From the NCBI GenBank assembly GCA_021158465.1, contig JAGGUN010000039.1, forward strand, positions 1 to 12,066: a stretch of DNA of 12,066 nucleotides. The letters are read 5' to 3'. A program made the translations under genes and the position numbers. The notes under the pieces are model-generated. The model was not told the DNA's origin. It worked only from the letters and a program-made list of their open reading frames with translations, and did not search any database. This DNA comes from a bacterium. GTDB taxonomy: Bacteria; UBP14; UBA6098; 4484-93. Shown one piece after another: positions 4,149-12,066 of the stretch (position 1 is the stretch's first letter; each line of letters opens with the position of its first letter).

Positions 4149-4604
4149 ATGTACAGGGTTCTGGTAGATGAGGAAACTGGACTTTACAACTTCCAGTATC
4201 TTATGGAGCGGCTCCAGCAGGAGATAAACTATGTTTCTCGGTTTCGTCAGGAGCTGGTATTCTGCCTTGTTGAGGTTGCAGGTCTCGATAAGCTCTCCCA
4301 GAAAGAGGCGAAGGATAGAAGGTGCAAGGTGGCAGAATTTCTGACAGACTTTTTCCGCGACTATGATGTGGTCGCCAGGGTTGATGATACAAAGTTCGGG
4401 GTTATTGTCCGCTCGATAAGCTACAAGAATGCTACTAAGAGGGCAGAAGTTCTTATGGAGGAGTTCAAGAAGCGTTTTCCAGAGTTCTCCGATATGGTAT
4501 ATATCGCCCTTGTTAAGGCGAGCGAGGAGGTGCTTGCTAATAATGTCTTTGATAGAGCGATCAAAGCGTTGCGGGCTAAGCTTCATAGAATCGGATGGGG
4601 ATGA
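4149..4604 (+). CDS. Stand-alone degenerate GGDEF-domain protein
   Basis: The 151 residues form a single domain of the diguanylate cyclase (GGDEF) fold. The N-terminal signature DEETGLYNFQYL (7-18) matches the D-x-LTGLYNRRY hallmark of that family, and the spacing to the active-site hairpin is normal. The hairpin itself is lost: where active enzymes have R-[YF]-GGDEF, this protein has R77-V-D-D-T-K-F83. The usual metal-binding aspartate of the first strand also appears to be glutamate (E42, in CLVEV). The upstream RxxD inhibitory site is not obvious. By family knowledge it should therefore not make cyclic di-GMP and may instead bind nucleotides or a protein partner. No sensor, receiver or membrane domain is attached. 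A strong AGGAGGT at 4137-4143 supports the start at 4149. A gap and a candidate promoter set it apart from the gene before it. Fold assignment is fairly sure; function is open. Confidence 0.75.
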   Translation: MYRVLVDEETGLYNFQYLMERLQQEINYVSRFRQELVFCLVEVAGLDKLSQKEAKDRRCKVAEFLTDFFRDYDVVARVDDTKFGVIVRSISYKNATKRAEVLMEEFKKRFPEFSDMVYIALVKASEEVLANNVFDRAIKALRAKLHRIGWG

Positions 4605-4745: not shown

Positions 4746-5450
4746 ATGCCACAGACCGAGGCCCCGAAGCATAAACTTATCCCTGTCTATATTATGGGGC
4801 AAAAACATATGGTTCCCGAGGGCTCGACCATTATGGGAGCGCTTGAATATGTGGGGTATCAGCTTAAGCGAGGTGTTGGTTGTAGGGAGGGGTTCTGTGG
4901 AGCCTGTGCCACTGTTTATCGAGTTGAAGGCGACTACAAACTGCGCGGCGGACTCGCCTGCCAGACGGTGGTTGAACCAGGTATGTATATCGTTCAGATA
5001 CCTTTTGCTCCGGCGGAGAAGGCTGTTTACGACCTCGATGAACTCAAGCCTGATATATCTGTTTTCCAGAGATACTACCCTGAGCTATTCCGCTGTGTTG
5101 CCTGTAACTCCTGCACCAAGATATGTCCTCAGGAGATTGAGGTAATGGATTACATTCAGGCGCTTATCCGAGGGGATATAGCTCTTGCTGCTGACCTGTC
5201 GTTCGATTGCATTATGTGTGGGCTCTGTGCGATGAGATGCCCTGCAGAGATGGCTCAATACAACATTGCAATCCTTGCGAGGAGGCTGTATGGCAAGTAC
5301 CTTGCACCGAAGGCAGAGTTCTTCCGTACGAGGTTGAAAGAGATTAGAGAAGGGAAGTTTGATGAAGAGATAGCTCGACTTATGAAGATGAGTCGTGAGG
5401 AGCTGGACAAGGCGTACTATTCCCGGAAGATAGACTTCAAGATTACATAA
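4746..5450 (+). CDS. Iron-sulfur subunit of a fumarate reductase/succinate dehydrogenase-like enzyme
   Basis: This is the predicted electron-transfer subunit that wires the flavoprotein encoded next to it. Residues 1-90 form a plant-type [2Fe-2S] ferredoxin domain with ligands C46, C51, C54 and C72 (CREGFCGAC, then GGLACQ). Residues 110-170 carry two ferredoxin-type motifs, C117-x2-C120-x2-C123-x3-C127-P and C155-x2-C158-x2-C161-x3-C165-P. Ordinary SdhB/FrdB proteins bind a [2Fe-2S], a [4Fe-4S] and usually a [3Fe-4S] centre, the last from a motif with wider spacing. Here both motifs are classical, so two [4Fe-4S] centres are likely. The C-terminal 60 residues are charged and helical. No cysteine-rich CCG domain is fused on, unlike TfrB of methanogens. 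The protein is cytoplasmic, with no membrane segment. The flavoprotein gene starts ten bases after the stop. I give no symbol because the direction of the reaction and the electron partner are not settled. Confidence 0.9.
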   Translation: MPQTEAPKHKLIPVYIMGQKHMVPEGSTIMGALEYVGYQLKRGVGCREGFCGACATVYRVEGDYKLRGGLACQTVVEPGMYIVQIPFAPAEKAVYDLDELKPDISVFQRYYPELFRCVACNSCTKICPQEIEVMDYIQALIRGDIALAADLSFDCIMCGLCAMRCPAEMAQYNIAILARRLYGKYLAPKAEFFRTRLKEIREGKFDEEIARLMKMSREELDKAYYSRKIDFKIT

Positions 5451-5460
5451 AGGAGGCAAG

Positions 5461-7128
5461 ATGTATCCTGACTATATGAGGGAGTCGATAGAGATGGTAG
5501 CAAGGACGCGACCGAAGCGTCTCGAGCTTGCAAAGCAGGGGCTTAAGGTGTTCGACCCGATGACAGAGCAGGAACGAGAGGATGTGCTGAATAGGTTTCA
5601 CCCGGACTATCAGCCGGATGCGAGGCGCGTTGTGCATGTTGGTCCTAACAAAGGGGAGAGTATAACAGCCAAGGTGGCTGATATACTTGAGGCTCATTCC
5701 CGCATCAACCCGGAGGAGTTTGACCTTAGCAATCCCGATATCGACACAGATGTCCTCGTTATAGGTGGTGGTGGAGGTGGCTGTATGGCTGCGCTTTTTG
5801 CCGCTCGGAACGGTGCCGATGTTCTCATTGCGACGAAGTTGAGGCTGGGTGATTCCAATTCGATGATGTCTCAAGGTGGTATGCAGGCGGCTGTTAACCC
5901 GCACGATTCGCCTGCTATACATTATCTCGATGTTATAGGTGGCGGGCATTTCGACAATAAACCTGAGCTTGTTCGTCGCCTCGTGATGGATGCTCCGTTT
6001 ATAGCCGCTCTCCTTGAGGATATGGGCGTTATGTGGGACAAGGACGAGAACGGGGTTCCGATGACGAAATCCGGTGGAGGCACATCCCGCCGTAGGATGC
6101 TCTCCGCCAGAGACTACACGGGTGCCGAGATTATGCGAACACTCAGAGATGAGGTGAAGAACCATCCAGATAAGATAAAGCTCCTTGAGTTCACACCTGC
6201 TGTCGAGCTGATAAAGGATACAGAGGGTAAGGTTGCTGGGGCTGTTCTCTACAATATCGAGACAGAGATATATTATATTGTTCGTGCCAGGGCAACAATA
6301 CTTGCGACAGGCGGGTTTGGGAGACTGCATATCAAGGATTTCGCTACGACGAACCACTACGGTGCTACATGCGATGGAGTGGTGATGGCTTACAGGGCAG
6401 GGGCAAAGCTTCTCTACATGGATTCTGTCCAGTATCATCCGACGGGAGCGGTTTACCCACCACAGATACTCGGTTTCCTTGTTACGGAGAAGGTTAGGGG
6501 ACTTGGTGGTCAGCCTGTGAATAAATACGGTGAACTGTTTGTCTTTCCGCTCGAGCCGAGGGATGTAGAGGCGTCGGCGTTTATTCGAGAGTGTCAAGAG
6601 CGGAAGAATGGCGTTGTAACACCTGATGGAAGGTGTGGTATCTGGCTCGATTCTCCGATAATTAATCTCATAAACGGTCCTGGGTATCTTGAGCGTAACT
6701 TGCCCGCCATGTTTAGGCAGTACAAACGCTTCGATATCGATATAACAAAGGAACCGATGCTTGTATATCCGACACTGCATTATCAGAACGGTGGTGTTGA
6801 GATAAATGAGAATGCAGAGACGGCTCTCCCAGGGCTTTTTGCAGCTGGTGAGGTATCAGGTGGTGTCCACGGTCGCAACCGTCTTATGGGTAACTCTGTC
6901 CTCGACTATAATGTCTTTGGAAGGATAGCGGGAATGAATGCGGCTGAATATGCTAAGAGGGTAAAGCTCGGCAGGCTGACGCTCGAGCATATCAAAGAGT
7001 ACGAAAAGGAGCTTAAGGATGCCGGTATAGAAACCGACAGGGTTTCACCGATTCTGCTTCCGCTTTATACACCACCTGAGATAATCACCCGGCAGAAGAC
7101 AGCTCATTATGAAGGGAACCTAAGGTAG
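5461..7128 (+). CDS. Flavoprotein subunit of a fumarate reductase/succinate dehydrogenase-like enzyme
   Basis: FAD-dependent dicarboxylate oxidoreductase of the SdhA/FrdA/L-aspartate oxidase superfamily; the expected reaction is fumarate to succinate or the reverse. The Rossmann motif GGGGGG is at 102-107. Substrate-site residues of the family can be placed: HPTG with H326, R367 in PRDVEAS (the likely proton-donor arginine), HYQNGG with H440, and NRLMGNS with R474. The histidine that carries covalent FAD in SdhA/FrdA is replaced by N133 (NSMMSQGG), so FAD should be bound non-covalently, as in L-aspartate oxidase. Two other departures: about 95 residues precede the FAD fold, where SdhA/FrdA have roughly ten, and the C-terminal helical domain is short (555 residues in all). 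There is no Tat or Sec signal, so it should be cytoplasmic. Perfect AGGAGG (5451-5456) precedes the ATG. Co-occurrence with the iron-sulfur subunit makes an aspartate oxidase role unlikely. Confidence 0.9.
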   Translation: MYPDYMRESIEMVARTRPKRLELAKQGLKVFDPMTEQEREDVLNRFHPDYQPDARRVVHVGPNKGESITAKVADILEAHSRINPEEFDLSNPDIDTDVLVIGGGGGGCMAALFAARNGADVLIATKLRLGDSNSMMSQGGMQAAVNPHDSPAIHYLDVIGGGHFDNKPELVRRLVMDAPFIAALLEDMGVMWDKDENGVPMTKSGGGTSRRRMLSARDYTGAEIMRTLRDEVKNHPDKIKLLEFTPAVELIKDTEGKVAGAVLYNIETEIYYIVRARATILATGGFGRLHIKDFATTNHYGATCDGVVMAYRAGAKLLYMDSVQYHPTGAVYPPQILGFLVTEKVRGLGGQPVNKYGELFVFPLEPRDVEASAFIRECQERKNGVVTPDGRCGIWLDSPIINLINGPGYLERNLPAMFRQYKRFDIDITKEPMLVYPTLHYQNGGVEINENAETALPGLFAAGEVSGGVHGRNRLMGNSVLDYNVFGRIAGMNAAEYAKRVKLGRLTLEHIKEYEKELKDAGIETDRVSPILLPLYTPPEIITRQKTAHYEGNLR

Positions 7129-7141
7129 GGGGCTAAAAGTT

Positions 7142-8584
7142 ATGAAGAAATTTTTCATTTTACCGCTCTTCCTTTTTCTTCCTGTTCTTCCTGCCATCTC
7201 CGAGGAGGTGCTTCCTGTTGTACCGGTGAAGCAGGATATGACAATCCTTATTGCCGGTGAAGAGGCAGGATACTGTTCTTATTCCCTCTATCGCGACCCG
7301 AAAGGGTATGAGATGACCTCCGAAAGTTATATGAAGCTCAAGGTCATGGGCAAGCCGGTGGAACTCACATTTAAGGAGATATCCCATTTCCACCTTAATT
7401 ATCTTCCGAGGGACTATTCGGTTGACATTATATCACCGCAGGGGAAACAGCATATCGAGGCGGTATTCGGTAAGGATAAGATAACATCAACCACTGCTTC
7501 AGGTGAAAGGGAATTTCCACTTGGAGGAACAACAGTTCTTATTGACAATAACCTGCTATCGCACTGGGCAGTTCTTGCAAAGAGAATCGATTATACAAAT
7601 GATAAGGAGGTGCGTCTCTCTTCATTTGTCCCACAACTGCAGCGGGTAGTTGACTTCTCATACACCGTTGTTGGTCCTGACAAAGAGAGAGGCGGTTTGA
7701 CCAAGGTTGAGGCAAATGAGGCGGGTGTCCAGATATTCTTCTGGGTGGAGAGAAAGGATACACTCATAAAGAGGCTACTGATACCTTCACAGAACTTTGA
7801 GGCAATAGAGGCGAAGGAAAGACCTAAAAAGGAGGAACTTGAACCCCCTGAGTTTATGAAACCTATGCTTGCTGCGCTTTCTATCCCGAGCAATGTCGAT
7901 ATGGGCGATTTTAACAAGATAAAGTATATGAAAGCAAATATCGACCTCCGCTTCTCAGGTGAGCCGTATCTTACCACAGGATACCAGAGGTTCACAGGCG
8001 AGTATTCCGGTGGGCATATAACCGGTATTGTGGAGGTGAAGAAAAAGAGCCTGAAGGCGACAAGTGCACTCCGCTTCCCCCTGGCAGAACCGTTATCTGT
8101 CGATTCGGTCTATCTCCTCCCTGACCACTCTGTCGGTATCTACTCGGACAACGAGGAGATTGCTGAAAAGGCGAAGAAGATTATCTCTCCCACGGGTAAT
8201 ATGTTCGAGGCGGCAAGGGCGATATGCCTCTGGGTCTATCGGAATGTCGTGTATCAGGTAACCGCCGGAACCGCACTCGATGCCTGGGAGACGAGAAAGG
8301 GCGATTGCGGTCCAAAGTCACTGCTGGCAATATCGATGCTCCGCTCGGTCGGCATTCCTGCTCGGCTCGTCGGAGGTATGCTCTATGCCAACGGTAAATT
8401 CGCTCAGCACAACTGGGTGGAGGCATATCTCGGCAAGAAGGCTGGCTGGATACCGCTTGACCCGACAACAGGTGAGGCAGAGAAACTCAATGCGGGGCAT
8501 ATAACCCTCTGGCTCGGCGAGGGAACGGTCTCACCATCCGGCAAGGAAGGCAGGATCGAGGTGCTCGAATATAAAACAGAATGA
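7142..8584 (+). CDS. Secreted transglutaminase-like (papain-fold) protein
   Basis: The N-terminus is a signal peptide (MKKFFILPLFLFLPVLPAIS, cleaved near residue 20). Residues about 21-240 look like a beta-rich region, with strands such as TVLIDNNLLSHWAVL, as found ahead of many bacterial transglutaminase-like domains. Residues about 355-450 form the transglutaminase-like core. Its catalytic triad is visible: C389 in KGDCGPKSLL, H423 in QHNWVEAYL and D440 in PLDPTTGE. The set-up segments AICLWVYRNVVYQ and SVGIPARLVGG are typical. Such proteins are usually exported amide hydrolases, proteases or cross-linkers acting on peptides or cell-wall material; the substrate here is unknown. No C-terminal sorting domain is present, unlike the other exported proteins of this window. 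The start lies 13 bases after the flavoprotein stop, behind a weak G-rich site (7128-7132). The position inside a redox operon is unexplained. Confidence 0.85.
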   Translation: MKKFFILPLFLFLPVLPAISEEVLPVVPVKQDMTILIAGEEAGYCSYSLYRDPKGYEMTSESYMKLKVMGKPVELTFKEISHFHLNYLPRDYSVDIISPQGKQHIEAVFGKDKITSTTASGEREFPLGGTTVLIDNNLLSHWAVLAKRIDYTNDKEVRLSSFVPQLQRVVDFSYTVVGPDKERGGLTKVEANEAGVQIFFWVERKDTLIKRLLIPSQNFEAIEAKERPKKEELEPPEFMKPMLAALSIPSNVDMGDFNKIKYMKANIDLRFSGEPYLTTGYQRFTGEYSGGHITGIVEVKKKSLKATSALRFPLAEPLSVDSVYLLPDHSVGIYSDNEEIAEKAKKIISPTGNMFEAARAICLWVYRNVVYQVTAGTALDAWETRKGDCGPKSLLAISMLRSVGIPARLVGGMLYANGKFAQHNWVEAYLGKKAGWIPLDPTTGEAEKLNAGHITLWLGEGTVSPSGKEGRIEVLEYKTE

Positions 8585-8636
8585 AAAATGCAAAACTGGT
8601 CTCGAGCCACACGCAATCGGAGAATCGAGAAGAACG

Positions 8637-9146
8637 ATGGGTTTTGATAAGAGAAAGGTGATTGTAGTTGCGTTGGTGGTGCTGCTGTTGGAGGCAGGTG
8701 CCTCCTTCACCGGTGGCTTGGCGCACACATATGATAGAGGCTATGGTATTTGTAGCTACTCCGTTACACGGATAACCGACAATGGGTATATCGTGGCAGC
8801 ACAGACGGAATCCTGTGGCGCGGGTATGGTTGGTATCTGTCTTTGTGATACCAACTCGCTCGGACACACGGCGATAACCGAGCTTGCCTTGCAGGAGGCT
8901 GTTGCCTTCTCCTTTTCTGTCTCCCCGAATCCGTTCAATTCGTCTTGTGTCATCACCGCGCCTGCTGGAGCGGAAATAGAGATATACGATTTACTTGGCA
9001 ACTCTGTATGGAGCAAAACCATCCCCCGGTCAGCTCAAGCAAATCTGGTCTGGCAACCGGAAGAAAACATTGCAAGCGGAATATATCTTGTCAAGGCGTT
9101 CTGTGAAGGGGAATGTGCAACGAGAAAATTGGTATATCTAAAATAG
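8637..9146 (+). CDS. Small secreted protein with one residual repeat and a C-terminal sorting domain
   Basis: The 169 residues comprise three parts. Residues 1-25 are a signal peptide (charged MGFDKRK, then VIVVALVVLLL). Residues about 30-75 resemble a single copy of the repeat RGYSV-x-T-DGGYI-A-TES-GAG common in large beta-propeller-like secreted proteins of FCB-related lineages; here it reads DRGYG, then RITDNGYIVAAQTESCGAG. The last 75-80 residues are a type IX-like sorting domain (SVSPNPFNSS, IEIYDLLGNSVW, SGIYLVKAF, final KLVYLK). Full-length relatives usually hold many repeats, so this looks like an internally deleted remnant, though the reading frame is intact. Seven cysteines are unusual for the repeat type. 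The Shine-Dalgarno is weak (purines near 8626-8633). No function can be assigned beyond export. Confidence 0.7.
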   Translation: MGFDKRKVIVVALVVLLLEAGASFTGGLAHTYDRGYGICSYSVTRITDNGYIVAAQTESCGAGMVGICLCDTNSLGHTAITELALQEAVAFSFSVSPNPFNSSCVITAPAGAEIEIYDLLGNSVWSKTIPRSAQANLVWQPEENIASGIYLVKAFCEGECATRKLVYLK

Positions 9147-9157
9147 AAAGGGTATAA

Positions 9158-12066
9158 ATGGAAAAATGTGATGTTCTCATTGTCGGGTCTGGTCTGGCAG
9201 GGTTAAAGGCTGCTCTCGACCTCTCCGGGGTAGGTGCGAGCGTCTTCATTGTTGAAAGGAGCGATTGCCTCCTATCCCCGTTTGTCTACTCATTTCGGGA
9301 CCGCTTCATGGCTAAAGCCTTCATTGCTGAAAGGAGTAATCACCTCACCGATGCCTGCGGGATATACCGTATGTTTCCCCCTGAGAGGAGCGAGGAGAAT
9401 TTCTACATCCGGAGGGACTTCCTCCTGCCTGGGGTGAGAAGATTCACCTCGTCACGAGTATCGTCCGTTGAGAGGAAGAATGGACGATTTATTGTGAAGA
9501 TACTTTCTTCCCCCCTCCGTGTGGATGAGAAAAAGTGCATCAGCTGTGACAGGTGTGTCAATGTCTGCCCGGTAAATGTTCCCAATGAATTCGACAAGAA
9601 CATCTCTACTCGGAAGGCGATCCGCCGTGCCTATATCCATTCGCTTGCCAACCAGTATGTTATTGATGAGGATGCCTGCACCCGCTGTGGAAAATGTGCT
9701 GATGTCTGCCCGACGGACGCTATCTCCCTTGACGATAAGCCGATTGAGACGATACTCGATGTCGGGTATATCCTGTTGATGCCTGGGTTCGAGGAGTTTG
9801 CTCCCAGAGAGAAGGAGTATAACAAGAGCAATAACCCCGATGTTATAACATCGACGCAAATGGAAAGGTTGTATGCTCCTACTGGTCCGTTTGGTGGAAA
9901 GATTCTCTGCCCATCAAGCAGGAAGCCGCCGAAGCGGATAGCGTTTGTTCAGTGTGTCGGCTCCCGAACAGAGGAACATAACTACTGCTCATCTGCTTGT
10001 TGTATGTATTCGATGGAAAAAGCACGCTTTATAAAGACAAAAGGAGGTCTCCCTGACGCTGAGATTAAGATATTCTTCACCGATATTCGAGCGTTTGGCA
10101 AAGGATATTATCAGTATGCCGAGGGTACAGAAAATATGGGTATAGAATTTGAGTATGTCAGAGTTCCTCGGATACTCGATGATTACAAAGAAGGCGGGGT
10201 GAAGATAAGGTATCAGAATTCAAAAGGTGAGCTTGTAGATGAGCATTTCGATATAGCTGTTCTGGTTGTTGGGCAGGTGCCATCCTCGGAGGTCGGTGAG
10301 CTTGTCAAGCTGTTTGGGGCAAAGACGAACGAGGATGGATTTGTCGAGACACGAAGCCGGTTTACATCCGAGACTACCCAGAACAATGTCTTCGCGGCAG
10401 GTCCGATCGTCGAGCCGAAGGATATACCCGATTCCATTATGGAGGCATCGGGAGCAGCAGGCGAAATTGCGATGAGATTCTCTCTCTCTTCAAAAAAGAT
10501 AAATATTCCGAAGCCGTATAATCCTGATGCGGACAAACTCGGTGTCTTCATCTGCAAGTGCGGGGGTGAGATAACATCCTCGATTGATTTCTCCAGAATT
10601 CGAGAGGCGATTGCCTCCGATGATATCGCCTTCATCGAGGAGATAAACTACCTCTGTCTCCCTGATGGTCTCGAGAGGATAAAGGAGGTTGTGAAGGAGC
10701 ATCAGGATAGGTTGAAAGGGATACTTATTGCCGCCTGCACCGGTTCAGGCTTCGATGTCGCCTATCGGAACGCTATCGAGGAGGCATCGGATTATCACAT
10801 ACCGTTTTATCGTGTGAACCTCCGTGAGGGGGCAGCCCGCGTTCATAAGGATGCGACGGAAAAGGCTGTCTCGCTTGTGAAGGGAGGAATTGCTCTTTTG
10901 AGCAGGCAAGAACCAAAGGAGAAATCTTTAAGACCTGGTGAGAAGAAAGCGATTGTAGTAGGTGGAGGCGCTGCAGGGCTTTCTGCTGCTCTCACCCTCT
11001 CTTCGGCTGGAATCCCTGTTGAGCTTTTTGAAAGATCCGATAGGCTGGCTAAAACATTTACACCATTAAATCCAGTCGAGTTCGGTGAGCAGTTTGCTGA
11101 CAGTGTAAAGAAGCTCATCAAGCAGGTAGAAAGTGATAAAAATATTAAGCTTCATCTCGGCTGTGAGGTCAAAGATATAACTGGATATCTCGGCAACTAC
11201 ACGGTCGAATATGACGGCAAGGAGAAAGGTTATGCCAATTCTACTGTCGTGGTTGTCGCAACAGGAGCGGTTGAGCATACCCCCGCAAGCTTCGGCTACG
11301 GGAAGATGAAGTCCGTTATGACCCAGTTCGAATTTGATAATATGCTTTTCAGGGAGAACAAGACCCCTGATTCTGTCGTTTTTATCCAGTGTGTCGAATC
11401 AAGAGAGATGCCGAGAAACTACTGCAGTAGGGTATGTTGCAATAAAACGATAATGCATGCAAGGGAGATAAAGCGTCGCAACCCGAGTGCTGATGTTGTT
11501 GTCCTGTATCGGGATATTACCGCCTACGGTTTCTACGAGAAGGAATACACAGCGGCGAGGAAGGACGGGGTTATATTCACAAGATACACGGTCGACAGGA
11601 AGCCCGAGGTGAAAGAGTTGGAAGGTAGACTTTCTGTTCGCTTCTTTGACCCGGAGGGTGGAAAGGAGACCGAAGTATTGGCTGATGTGGTTGTTCTTGC
11701 GACGGGTGTTGACCCGGTGACTCTTCCTTCTCTTCCGACAGATGCTTTCGGTTTTGCGGAGGGACTCGATGGTAAGTTATATAAGCTCTCTCCGCTTGAG
11801 GCTCACAGGCAGGGGCTTTTGGTCGCTGGGAGTTGCCGGATGCCCCAGAGCTTACCGGAGGCTATCCGTGAGGGTCGCTCTGCCGGTATCTCCGCACTCG
11901 GCTATCTCCTGATGGACAAATACCCATCCCGTGAGGTTGTTGCCTATGTCAGTCCGAGGAAGTGCGCATACTGTGGTCTGTGCATTCCCGCTTGCCCGTA
12001 TGAGGCACGCTATCTCGATGAGGATAACCGCACCGCCGTTGTTATACCCGATTTGTGCACCGGCTG
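9158..12066 (+). CDS. hdrA: Tandem HdrA-like flavo-iron-sulfur protein, C-terminus beyond the window
   Basis: This open frame of 969 codons has no stop and runs off the right edge. It fuses two HdrA-type modules. Module 1 (1-455) has a FAD Rossmann motif (GSGLAG, near residue 11), an inserted dicluster ferredoxin (C127/C130/C133/C137 and C174/C177/C180/C184), the HdrA cysteine signature (C266 in CVGSR; C277, C281, C282 in YCSSACC), DIRAFGKG, and PKDIPDS. Module 2 starts with the HdrA N-terminal domain (CKCGG, C466 and C468; then AACT and NLREGAARVHKD). It continues with a second Rossmann motif (GGGAAG, 602-607) and a second signature (C745; C756, C760, C761), and ends in a ferredoxin (C936/C939/C942/C946, then C967). 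HdrA is the FAD subunit of heterodisulfide reductase-type complexes and performs flavin-based electron bifurcation in characterised cases. The start follows AAAGGG (9147-9152) and is fixed by the FAD motif directly after it. Partners HdrB/HdrC/MvhD may lie downstream. The family is certain; bifurcation is inference. Confidence 0.93.
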   Translation, partial: MEKCDVLIVGSGLAGLKAALDLSGVGASVFIVERSDCLLSPFVYSFRDRFMAKAFIAERSNHLTDACGIYRMFPPERSEENFYIRRDFLLPGVRRFTSSRVSSVERKNGRFIVKILSSPLRVDEKKCISCDRCVNVCPVNVPNEFDKNISTRKAIRRAYIHSLANQYVIDEDACTRCGKCADVCPTDAISLDDKPIETILDVGYILLMPGFEEFAPREKEYNKSNNPDVITSTQMERLYAPTGPFGGKILCPSSRKPPKRIAFVQCVGSRTEEHNYCSSACCMYSMEKARFIKTKGGLPDAEIKIFFTDIRAFGKGYYQYAEGTENMGIEFEYVRVPRILDDYKEGGVKIRYQNSKGELVDEHFDIAVLVVGQVPSSEVGELVKLFGAKTNEDGFVETRSRFTSETTQNNVFAAGPIVEPKDIPDSIMEASGAAGEIAMRFSLSSKKINIPKPYNPDADKLGVFICKCGGEITSSIDFSRIREAIASDDIAFIEEINYLCLPDGLERIKEVVKEHQDRLKGILIAACTGSGFDVAYRNAIEEASDYHIPFYRVNLREGAARVHKDATEKAVSLVKGGIALLSRQEPKEKSLRPGEKKAIVVGGGAAGLSAALTLSSAGIPVELFERSDRLAKTFTPLNPVEFGEQFADSVKKLIKQVESDKNIKLHLGCEVKDITGYLGNYTVEYDGKEKGYANSTVVVVATGAVEHTPASFGYGKMKSVMTQFEFDNMLFRENKTPDSVVFIQCVESREMPRNYCSRVCCNKTIMHAREIKRRNPSADVVVLYRDITAYGFYEKEYTAARKDGVIFTRYTVDRKPEVKELEGRLSVRFFDPEGGKETEVLADVVVLATGVDPVTLPSLPTDAFGFAEGLDGKLYKLSPLEAHRQGLLVAGSCRMPQSLPEAIREGRSAGISALGYLLMDKYPSREVVAYVSPRKCAYCGLCIPACPYEARYLDEDNRTAVVIPDLCTG
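9244..9336 (+). repeat. Imperfect in-frame direct repeat, 75-base period, within the HdrA-like gene
   Basis: The 18 bases at 9244-9261 recur at 9319-9336 with one mismatch (CTTCATTG-T/C-TGAAAGGAG); similarity continues weakly for another dozen bases. The offset of 75 bases is exactly 25 codons, giving VFIVERSDCL and AFIAERSNHL. A shorter echo, CTGAGAGGAG, follows at 9381-9390 (PERSE). It lies just after the FAD Rossmann motif, where HdrA proteins normally carry a conserved GG and TFP segment that is not recognisable here. A small internal duplication is the simplest reading. Confidence 0.4.

Follow-up and report, generated by a model that had tools for sequence, protein, structure and literature searches.

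Genes at the locus

The window analyzed here, which is the entire contig C8 (12066 bp) of a 2.04-Mb, 54-contig bacterial genome with a completeness of 97.6%, carries the genes for a fumarate reductase-like pair, the iron-sulfur subunit FrdB and the flavoprotein FrdA, together with a gene for a tandem HdrA, and we propose that they take part in a soluble fumarate reductase that draws its electrons from an Hdr-type flavin complex. Five genes follow each other on the plus strand between position 4746 and the contig end (FrdB, FrdA, a transglutaminase-like protein, a T9SS-tail protein, and HdrA), with gaps of 10, 13, 52, and 11 bp in this order, and every gene assignment at 4746-12064 is backed by Pfam and NCBIfam profiles (Table 1). 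An earlier sequence-only reading of this DNA had claimed that the iron-sulfur and flavoprotein subunits are adjacent with no anchor gene alongside, and that an HdrA-like gene lies approximately 2 kb downstream on the same strand. Both claims are borne out by the open reading frames, with no anchor gene in the window, and the HdrA is indeed tandem, with flavin adenine dinucleotide (FAD) motifs at both residue 10 and residue 602 and the QCVxSR...CC motif in duplicate. A GGDEF-type protein (window 4149-4604) is encoded directly upstream of FrdB.

Table 1. Features of the fumarate reductase-HdrA locus (positions in the window)
Feature	Position	Strand	Basis or conservation
FrdB/TfrB-N-like iron-sulfur subunit, 234 aa	4746..5450	+	Fer2 + Fer4 dicluster
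[2Fe-2S] motif, FrdB Cys46/51/54/72	4881..4961	+	Cys invariant 62/62
First [4Fe-4S] motif of FrdB, CVACNSCTKIC	5094..5126	+	4 Cys invariant 62/62
Second [4Fe-4S] motif of FrdB, CIMCGLCAMRC, at the 3Fe-4S site of quinone-linked FrdB/SdhB	5208..5240	+	4 Cys invariant 62/62
FrdA/TfrA-like flavoprotein, catalytic subunit, 555 aa	5461..7128	+	FAD_binding_2 3.6e-76
FrdA N-terminal extension, ~93 aa, ahead of FAD domain	5461..5739	+	Invariant residues in 47 relatives
FrdA Asn133 at the FAD-linking His position	5857..5859	+	Asn in 63/63 aligned relatives
FrdA dicarboxylate-site span (His326, Thr342, Glu343, Arg346, Arg367, His440, Arg474)	6436..6882	+	Aligned to E. coli FrdA
Secreted transglutaminase-like protein	7142..8584	+	Transglut_core 1.7e-20
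Short T9SS-tail protein between transglutaminase and HdrA	8637..9146	+	TIGR04183 9.9e-8
Tandem HdrA, 969 aa read, open at contig end	9158..12064	+	HdrA2 3.8e-164, several stretches
HdrA module 1: FAD motif, two inserted [4Fe-4S] motifs (residues 127, 174), QCVGSR...CC	9158..10477	+	Motif scan
HdrA module 2: N-terminal CKCGG domain, FAD motif, QCVESR...CC, C-terminal [4Fe-4S] (residue 936)	10532..12064	+	Motif scan

For comparison, 80 loci from one scan, supplemented with genomes of the same class, were subjected to open reading frame calling, clustering, and profile annotation, and thinning at 90% identity left 64 representatives. In 62 of them, FrdB and FrdA are adjacent and co-oriented. To judge from their motifs, the twelve invariant Cys residues of FrdB would hold one [2Fe-2S] and two [4Fe-4S] clusters; there is no 3Fe-4S motif, and a full CxxCxxCxxxC stands in its place. 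The top NCBIfam model for FrdB is TfrB. Neither Pfam nor NCBIfam gave a CCG domain match in its 234 residues, and no fused TfrB was seen among the FrdB set of relatives. The predicted FrdB fold (mean predicted local distance difference test score [pLDDT] 80) matches mostly [2Fe-2S] domains; its match to the HdrC chain 8rwn_C (Z 7.3, root mean square deviation 3.7, 87 aligned residues) was too weak and was not used. As for a membrane anchor, no Sdh_cyt (PF01127) was found genome-wide, a search that did not extend to other anchor types (FrdC/FrdD).

In FrdA, residues 94-521 match models of the TfrA/SdhA/NadB superfamily. The top NCBIfam model is TfrA, at 347 bits under its 718-bit equivalog cut-off, and this model matches all 47 of the FrdA relatives scanned. 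No Succ_DH_flav_C domain is present. The PDB structure closest to an AlphaFold2 model of the protein (pLDDT 82) is that of E. coli FrdA (Foldseek E value, 2e-29), and the seven active-site residues are invariant wherever present (63-64 of 64 sequences). The N-terminal extension, which lies outside the stretch matched by the superfamily models, was modeled confidently and is mostly helical. The only further FrdA-like protein found in the genome is NadB, encoded on contig C28; a PF02910 match considered as a possible second SdhA was rejected because the protein is this NadB.

The flavin has a higher potential when FAD is covalently attached, and homologues that bind FAD noncovalently catalyze the reduction of fumarate but not the oxidation of succinate (PMC9557727). 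The replacement of the FAD-linking His by Asn133 thus argues for an FAD that is held noncovalently and for fumarate reduction as the favored direction. The sequence-only reading had left the choice between fumarate reduction and succinate oxidation; the former alternative gains from the missing His, and the latter does not.

That the HdrA of the window is a tandem is shown by the duplication of both its FAD and its QCVxSR...CC motif, together with [4Fe-4S] motifs, some inserted and one C-terminal, and an internal CKCGG domain. All hallmark motifs of HdrA (FAD, inserted and C-terminal ferredoxin, QCVGSR..CC, and CxCGG) are thus present, spread over a protein with two FAD sites. Its nearest solved relatives are the methanogen HdrAs (5odc match, 7e-101), with module 2 aligning to residues 4-234 and 524-619 of 5odc HdrA. 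The NCBIfam scores (HdrA2, 548 bits; HdrA, 439 bits) lie under the cut-offs of 1100-1400 for a protein that is truncated by the contig end; approximately 35 aa are absent past it, and the full-length relative in L041 is approximately 37 aa longer. A split form of the tandem HdrA was found in locus L127, where genes of 425 and 563 aa follow MvhD and match residues 5-438 and 458-969 of the window protein (in genome G005, the two genes lie directly after MvhD).

We also considered the 430- and 588-aa HdrA genes that flank a NuoF-like gene in G002, G005, and G011 as halves of the tandem HdrA, and rejected them because, in the G005 copies, Pfam showed the HdrA pieces to be fused to NuoE-type and Fer2 domains. 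HdrA genes divided in this way, with a NuoF-like gene between the two parts, were seen at L127:5457-10454, L126:3297-8294, and L120:8658-14433. In L127, the first HdrA piece carries a NuoE-like domain and the second a [2Fe-2S] domain. Together with the NuoF-like protein, these fusions suggest an NADH input module, that is, an NADH-dependent HdrA architecture.

Conservation of the gene neighborhood

Neighbors of the pair were counted within 12 kb in the 31 representative loci that had 5 kb of flank on both sides. FrdB was found in 30 of them, HdrA in 25, MvhD in 24, HdrB in 23, and HdrC in 15, making HdrA, MvhD, and HdrB similarly constant neighbors, followed by FlxC (19), KorA (17), FlxB (16), and FumA (3). 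At least one Hdr, MvhD, or Flx gene was present in 27 of the 31, and all 302 counted partner genes lay on the FrdA strand (302/302). HdrA would be expected within 12 kb by chance in approximately 2-6% of loci, compared with 25/31 observed, although the loci are related and not independent, and a binomial figure therefore overstates the case. The neighborhood conservation of the pair with hdrA was thus confirmed across relatives. Pairs lacking a nearby hdrA, which were to speak against the coupling, form a minority of 6 of the 31, and two of these six keep MvhD or Flx. At L098:8811-11266 and L129:9566-11874, the pair has no Hdr, MvhD, or Flx gene in the stretch covered; the Hdr genes may lie elsewhere, or the donor may differ.

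The clusters come in several types, such as HdrBC-Kor-HdrA-MvhD-FlxCBA-FrdBA and HdrBC-HdrA-FrdBA-HdrA-MvhD-FlxC, and other versions add fumarase or Mvh hydrogenase genes; modules for 2-oxoacid:ferredoxin oxidoreductase, NADH (Flx), or H2 (Mvh) are carried by some loci. Fumarase, HdrC, HdrB, and the HdrA divided around the NuoF-like protein surround the pair in G002 and G005, the order in G005 being FumA-FumB-FrdB-FrdA-HdrC-HdrB-HdrA-NuoF-like-HdrA-MvhD. Loci bearing such clusters are labeled Aminicenantes, Cloacimonadota, WOR-3, Hydrothermota, Caldisericia, Omnitrophota, and Gallionella/Sideroxydans, among others.

The order seen in the window, FrdB-FrdA-transglutaminase-HdrA, recurs in L123 (G006) and L131 (G008), whose HdrAs are 40-41% identical to that of the window. 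The transglutaminase gene also adjoins FrdA in L120, L121, L122, L124, and L039, and the T9SS-tail gene is not at the corresponding place in L123 and L148. Within the class, the transglutaminase is therefore a kept neighbor of FrdA, and the T9SS tail is not. In G011, a second transglutaminase copy adjoins HdrB (the two genes lie at L120:4639-6093 and 15287-16705).

FrdA and HdrA also tend to occur together in the 17 genomes of the class, including the one studied here. Both are present in 12, four lack both, and the remaining one, of 85% completeness, has HdrA without FrdA (Fisher P = 0.002, uncorrected for kinship). In genus g4, represented by three genomes of 92-98% completeness, FrdA, HdrA, and MvhD are jointly absent. 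On the other hand, the assembly of the sister species G001 (80% complete) has MvhD-FlxC and neither FrdA nor HdrA.

Partner genes elsewhere in the genome

The remaining parts of an Hdr complex were found on other contigs. The sole FlpD/MvhD gene (C10:285-647) lies at the extreme start of its contig and is followed by a FlxC-like gene. The sole CCG protein of the genome is HdrB on C17, the end of whose gene is overlapped by that of a GAF-GGDEF protein (L137:9809-10858). HdrC is encoded on C11, directly after the fumarase gene FumB, and C21 carries a second, ordinary HdrA. With HdrB and MvhD as single copies and HdrC and HdrA on separate contigs, the genome holds the components of an Hdr complex in a dispersed arrangement. 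The statement that the CCG part is missing here and replaced by HdrA accordingly falls: HdrB is a separate gene that adjoins the pair in many relatives, and it is lacking in the window but not in the genome. The sole FlxB match, on C15, is inside a membrane-hydrogenase/antiporter-like cluster (L144:1-13002), in which a 565-aa oxidoreductase-type protein and FlxBA-like subunits suggest an NAD(P)H-linked membrane complex.

C10 opens within a T9SS tail (L136:23-256) that shows 91% DNA identity over 234 bp to window positions 8918-9151. Copies of this tail thus stand before HdrA on C8 and before MvhD on C10, one that is 86% identical precedes MvhD in the sister G001, and a T9SS-like or propeller protein is encoded upstream of MvhD-FlxC in both G001 and G003. 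The repeated tail may mark a duplicated cassette, which would explain the contig break. An order HdrA-T9SS-MvhD across C8 and C10 is plausible but unproven; the gene following HdrA in G006 and G008 is not MvhD.

A putative Hdr-fed fumarate reductase and its alternatives

The recurrence of FrdA, FrdB, HdrB, HdrC, HdrA, and MvhD with exchanged NADH or H2 modules fits a soluble cytoplasmic fumarate reductase that receives its electrons from an Hdr-type flavin complex rather than from quinol and that is probably bifurcating, and we consider this reading likely. The donor would depend on the lineage, being either NADH, entering by Flx or by a module of the NuoEF type, or H2, entering by MvhAG. Electrons would pass by way of MvhD/FlxC to the HdrA flavin, from which one branch would lead to ferredoxin and a second would run via HdrC, HdrB, and the clusters of FrdB to the noncovalent FAD of FrdA, where fumarate would be reduced to succinate. 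HdrB would be the natural joint between FrdB and the Hdr part, since CCG proteins serve Frd pairs both in TfrB, where they are fused, and in SdhE of 8-methylmenaquinol:fumarate reductase, and the models for the C-terminal half of TfrB and for SdhE both match the HdrB of the relatives' clusters. Given potentials of +33 mV for fumarate, -320 mV for NADH, -414 mV for H2, and near -450 mV for ferredoxin, fumarate/ferredoxin bifurcation is feasible. The fumarase next to HdrC on C11 and inside the cluster in several lineages also supports the proposal. The coupling of the pair to HdrA put forward by the sequence-only reading thus stands as a functional tie, based on gene order across phyla, joint presence in 12 of 17 genomes, and the lack of Sdh_cyt, and its bifurcating character is a matter of inference. 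For the window itself, we tentatively suggest a special form as possible, in which the two-flavin tandem HdrA works without FlxAB, fumarate replaces a disulfide as the high-potential acceptor, and electrons pass from HdrA through HdrC, HdrB, and FrdB to FrdA with no free thiol.

Several observations weigh against this proposal. Two secreted-protein genes separate FrdA from HdrA in the window, the Frd and Hdr genes are spread over five contigs, with HdrB (C17) and HdrC (C11) away from the pair, and no overlap joining C8 and C10 was found. FlxAB is not beside FlxC on C10 (FlxA was not searched genome-wide). Among the relatives, the pair and HdrA sit on different contigs in G003, and four of the 31 well-flanked loci (L097, L098, L124, and L129) have no Hdr, MvhD, or Flx gene within 12 kb. 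Moreover, the comparable cluster of the Riftia symbiont is co-expressed except for tfrAB (PMC11636981). The intervening secreted genes, the dispersal of the Hdr genes, and the four loci would suit a situation in which the pair and HdrA are mere neighbors in this lineage without a shared function, and FrdAB uses another soluble donor. However, the order FrdB-FrdA-transglutaminase-HdrA was kept in L123 and L131 despite the low identity of their HdrAs, and genus g4 lacks FrdA, HdrA, and MvhD together, which makes this explanation very unlikely.

A thiol:fumarate reductase without bifurcation, in which FrdB and HdrB amount to a split TfrB and HdrA/MvhD belong to a separate, thiol-regenerating Hdr, would agree with TfrA and TfrB being the best NCBIfam models for FrdA and FrdB, with the TfrA match of all 47 relatives, and with the match of HdrB to the CCG half of TfrB. 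We regard it as rather unlikely, as HdrA and MvhD are as constant neighbors as HdrB, no fused TfrB was seen in the FrdB set, and the TfrA score of FrdA lies under the cut-off. The reverse process, succinate oxidation by electron confurcation, would have reduced ferredoxin help to push electrons to NAD+ or H+ in syntrophic or fermentative growth. Hdr complexes are reversible in principle, Mvh-type hydrogenase genes adjoin the pair in several relatives, and many relatives are, by their titles, uncultured sediment or subsurface genomes. Asn in place of the FAD-linking His in 63/63 relatives, the failure of noncovalent-FAD homologues to oxidize succinate (PMC9557727), and Kor genes adjoining the pair, which fit the reductive tricarboxylic acid (TCA) direction, render it distinctly unlikely. 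An identity of FrdA as L-aspartate oxidase or as some other dicarboxylate dehydrogenase is extremely improbable: the NadB model scores 264 bits and the active site is common to NadB, but this score is under the 452.75 cut-off, NadB is encoded separately, and a dedicated FrdB and fumarase neighbors are conserved.

Comparison with known systems

Fumarate reduction with NADH or H2 is strongly exergonic, and an uncoupled soluble enzyme would waste this energy. If the proposal is true, coupling to ferredoxin would save energy in anaerobes that have no quinone-linked fumarate reductase and would supply the ferredoxin-dependent steps of the reductive TCA cycle. Among membrane-free enzymes, the soluble, NADH-linked FrdABCDE of Aquifex and Hydrogenobacter is similar by description, sharing the reductive TCA cycle and extra redox subunits. 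It consists of five subunits (PMC10052474). The methanogen TfrAB is likewise a soluble pair with one [2Fe-2S] and two [4Fe-4S] clusters and CCG domains as partner, but its CCG part is fused in TfrB, and the FrdA of the window has an N-terminal extension and ends soon past the shared region. In 8-methylmenaquinol:fumarate reductase (SdhABE/MFR), the Frd pair is also served by an HdrB-like CCG protein, although that enzyme is membrane attached and quinol fed and has no HdrA or MvhD. Unlike the membrane complex II (SdhABCD/FrdABCD), the pair of the window has neither the FAD-linking His nor the 3Fe-4S motif.

The idea of a fumarate reductase tied to an Hdr complex is not new, contrary to the label given by the sequence-only reading, as such coupling was already proposed in 2019-2020 (PMC7282089, PMC6315080). 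For Pseudoclostridium thermosuccinogenes, whose "succinate operon" was induced approximately 4-fold under CO2 limitation, the proposal was that Flx-Hdr bifurcation is coupled to a fumarate reductase (PMC7282089); that paper cites a 2019 preprint on the coupling by Koendjbiharie and van Kranenburg. By description, that system resembles the present one in its fumarase, Hdr-type bifurcating complex, and two-gene fumarate reductase, with succinate formation tied to ferredoxin reduction. However, there a single operon holds these genes along with an NADH (Flx) module, whereas those studied here are dispersed, the pair being followed by secreted genes and a tandem HdrA and FlxC having no adjoining FlxAB. 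The P. thermosuccinogenes genome did not figure among the loci that the scan yielded. In tubeworm symbionts and Thioflavicoccus mobilis, tfrAB, korABCD, and flxABCD-hdrABC were suggested to encode one complex (PMC6315080). There too, a TfrAB-type pair is interspersed with Hdr-Flx and 2-oxoglutarate:ferredoxin oxidoreductase genes, but these are autotrophs with ATP-citrate lyase, and in the window, the HdrA is tandem and Kor and Flx neighbors are lacking. A WOR-3 survey mentions Hdr and Mvh, and the passages found in it make no link to fumarate reductase (PMC12542636). We found no enzymology in the literature for Flx-Hdr-linked fumarate reductases.

The system of the window is therefore a variant of an already proposed, biochemically unproven Frd-Hdr idea and not a new kind of enzyme. 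Beyond the earlier proposals, the present analysis shows how widely the association extends and that its input modules are exchangeable, and it contributes the signature of noncovalent FAD, the dispersal of the genes in this genome, and the tandem-HdrA variant. With the gene sets found in many lineages and their NADH and H2 modules interchangeable, a proposal that arose from one Clostridium and a few symbionts becomes testable on many enzymes.

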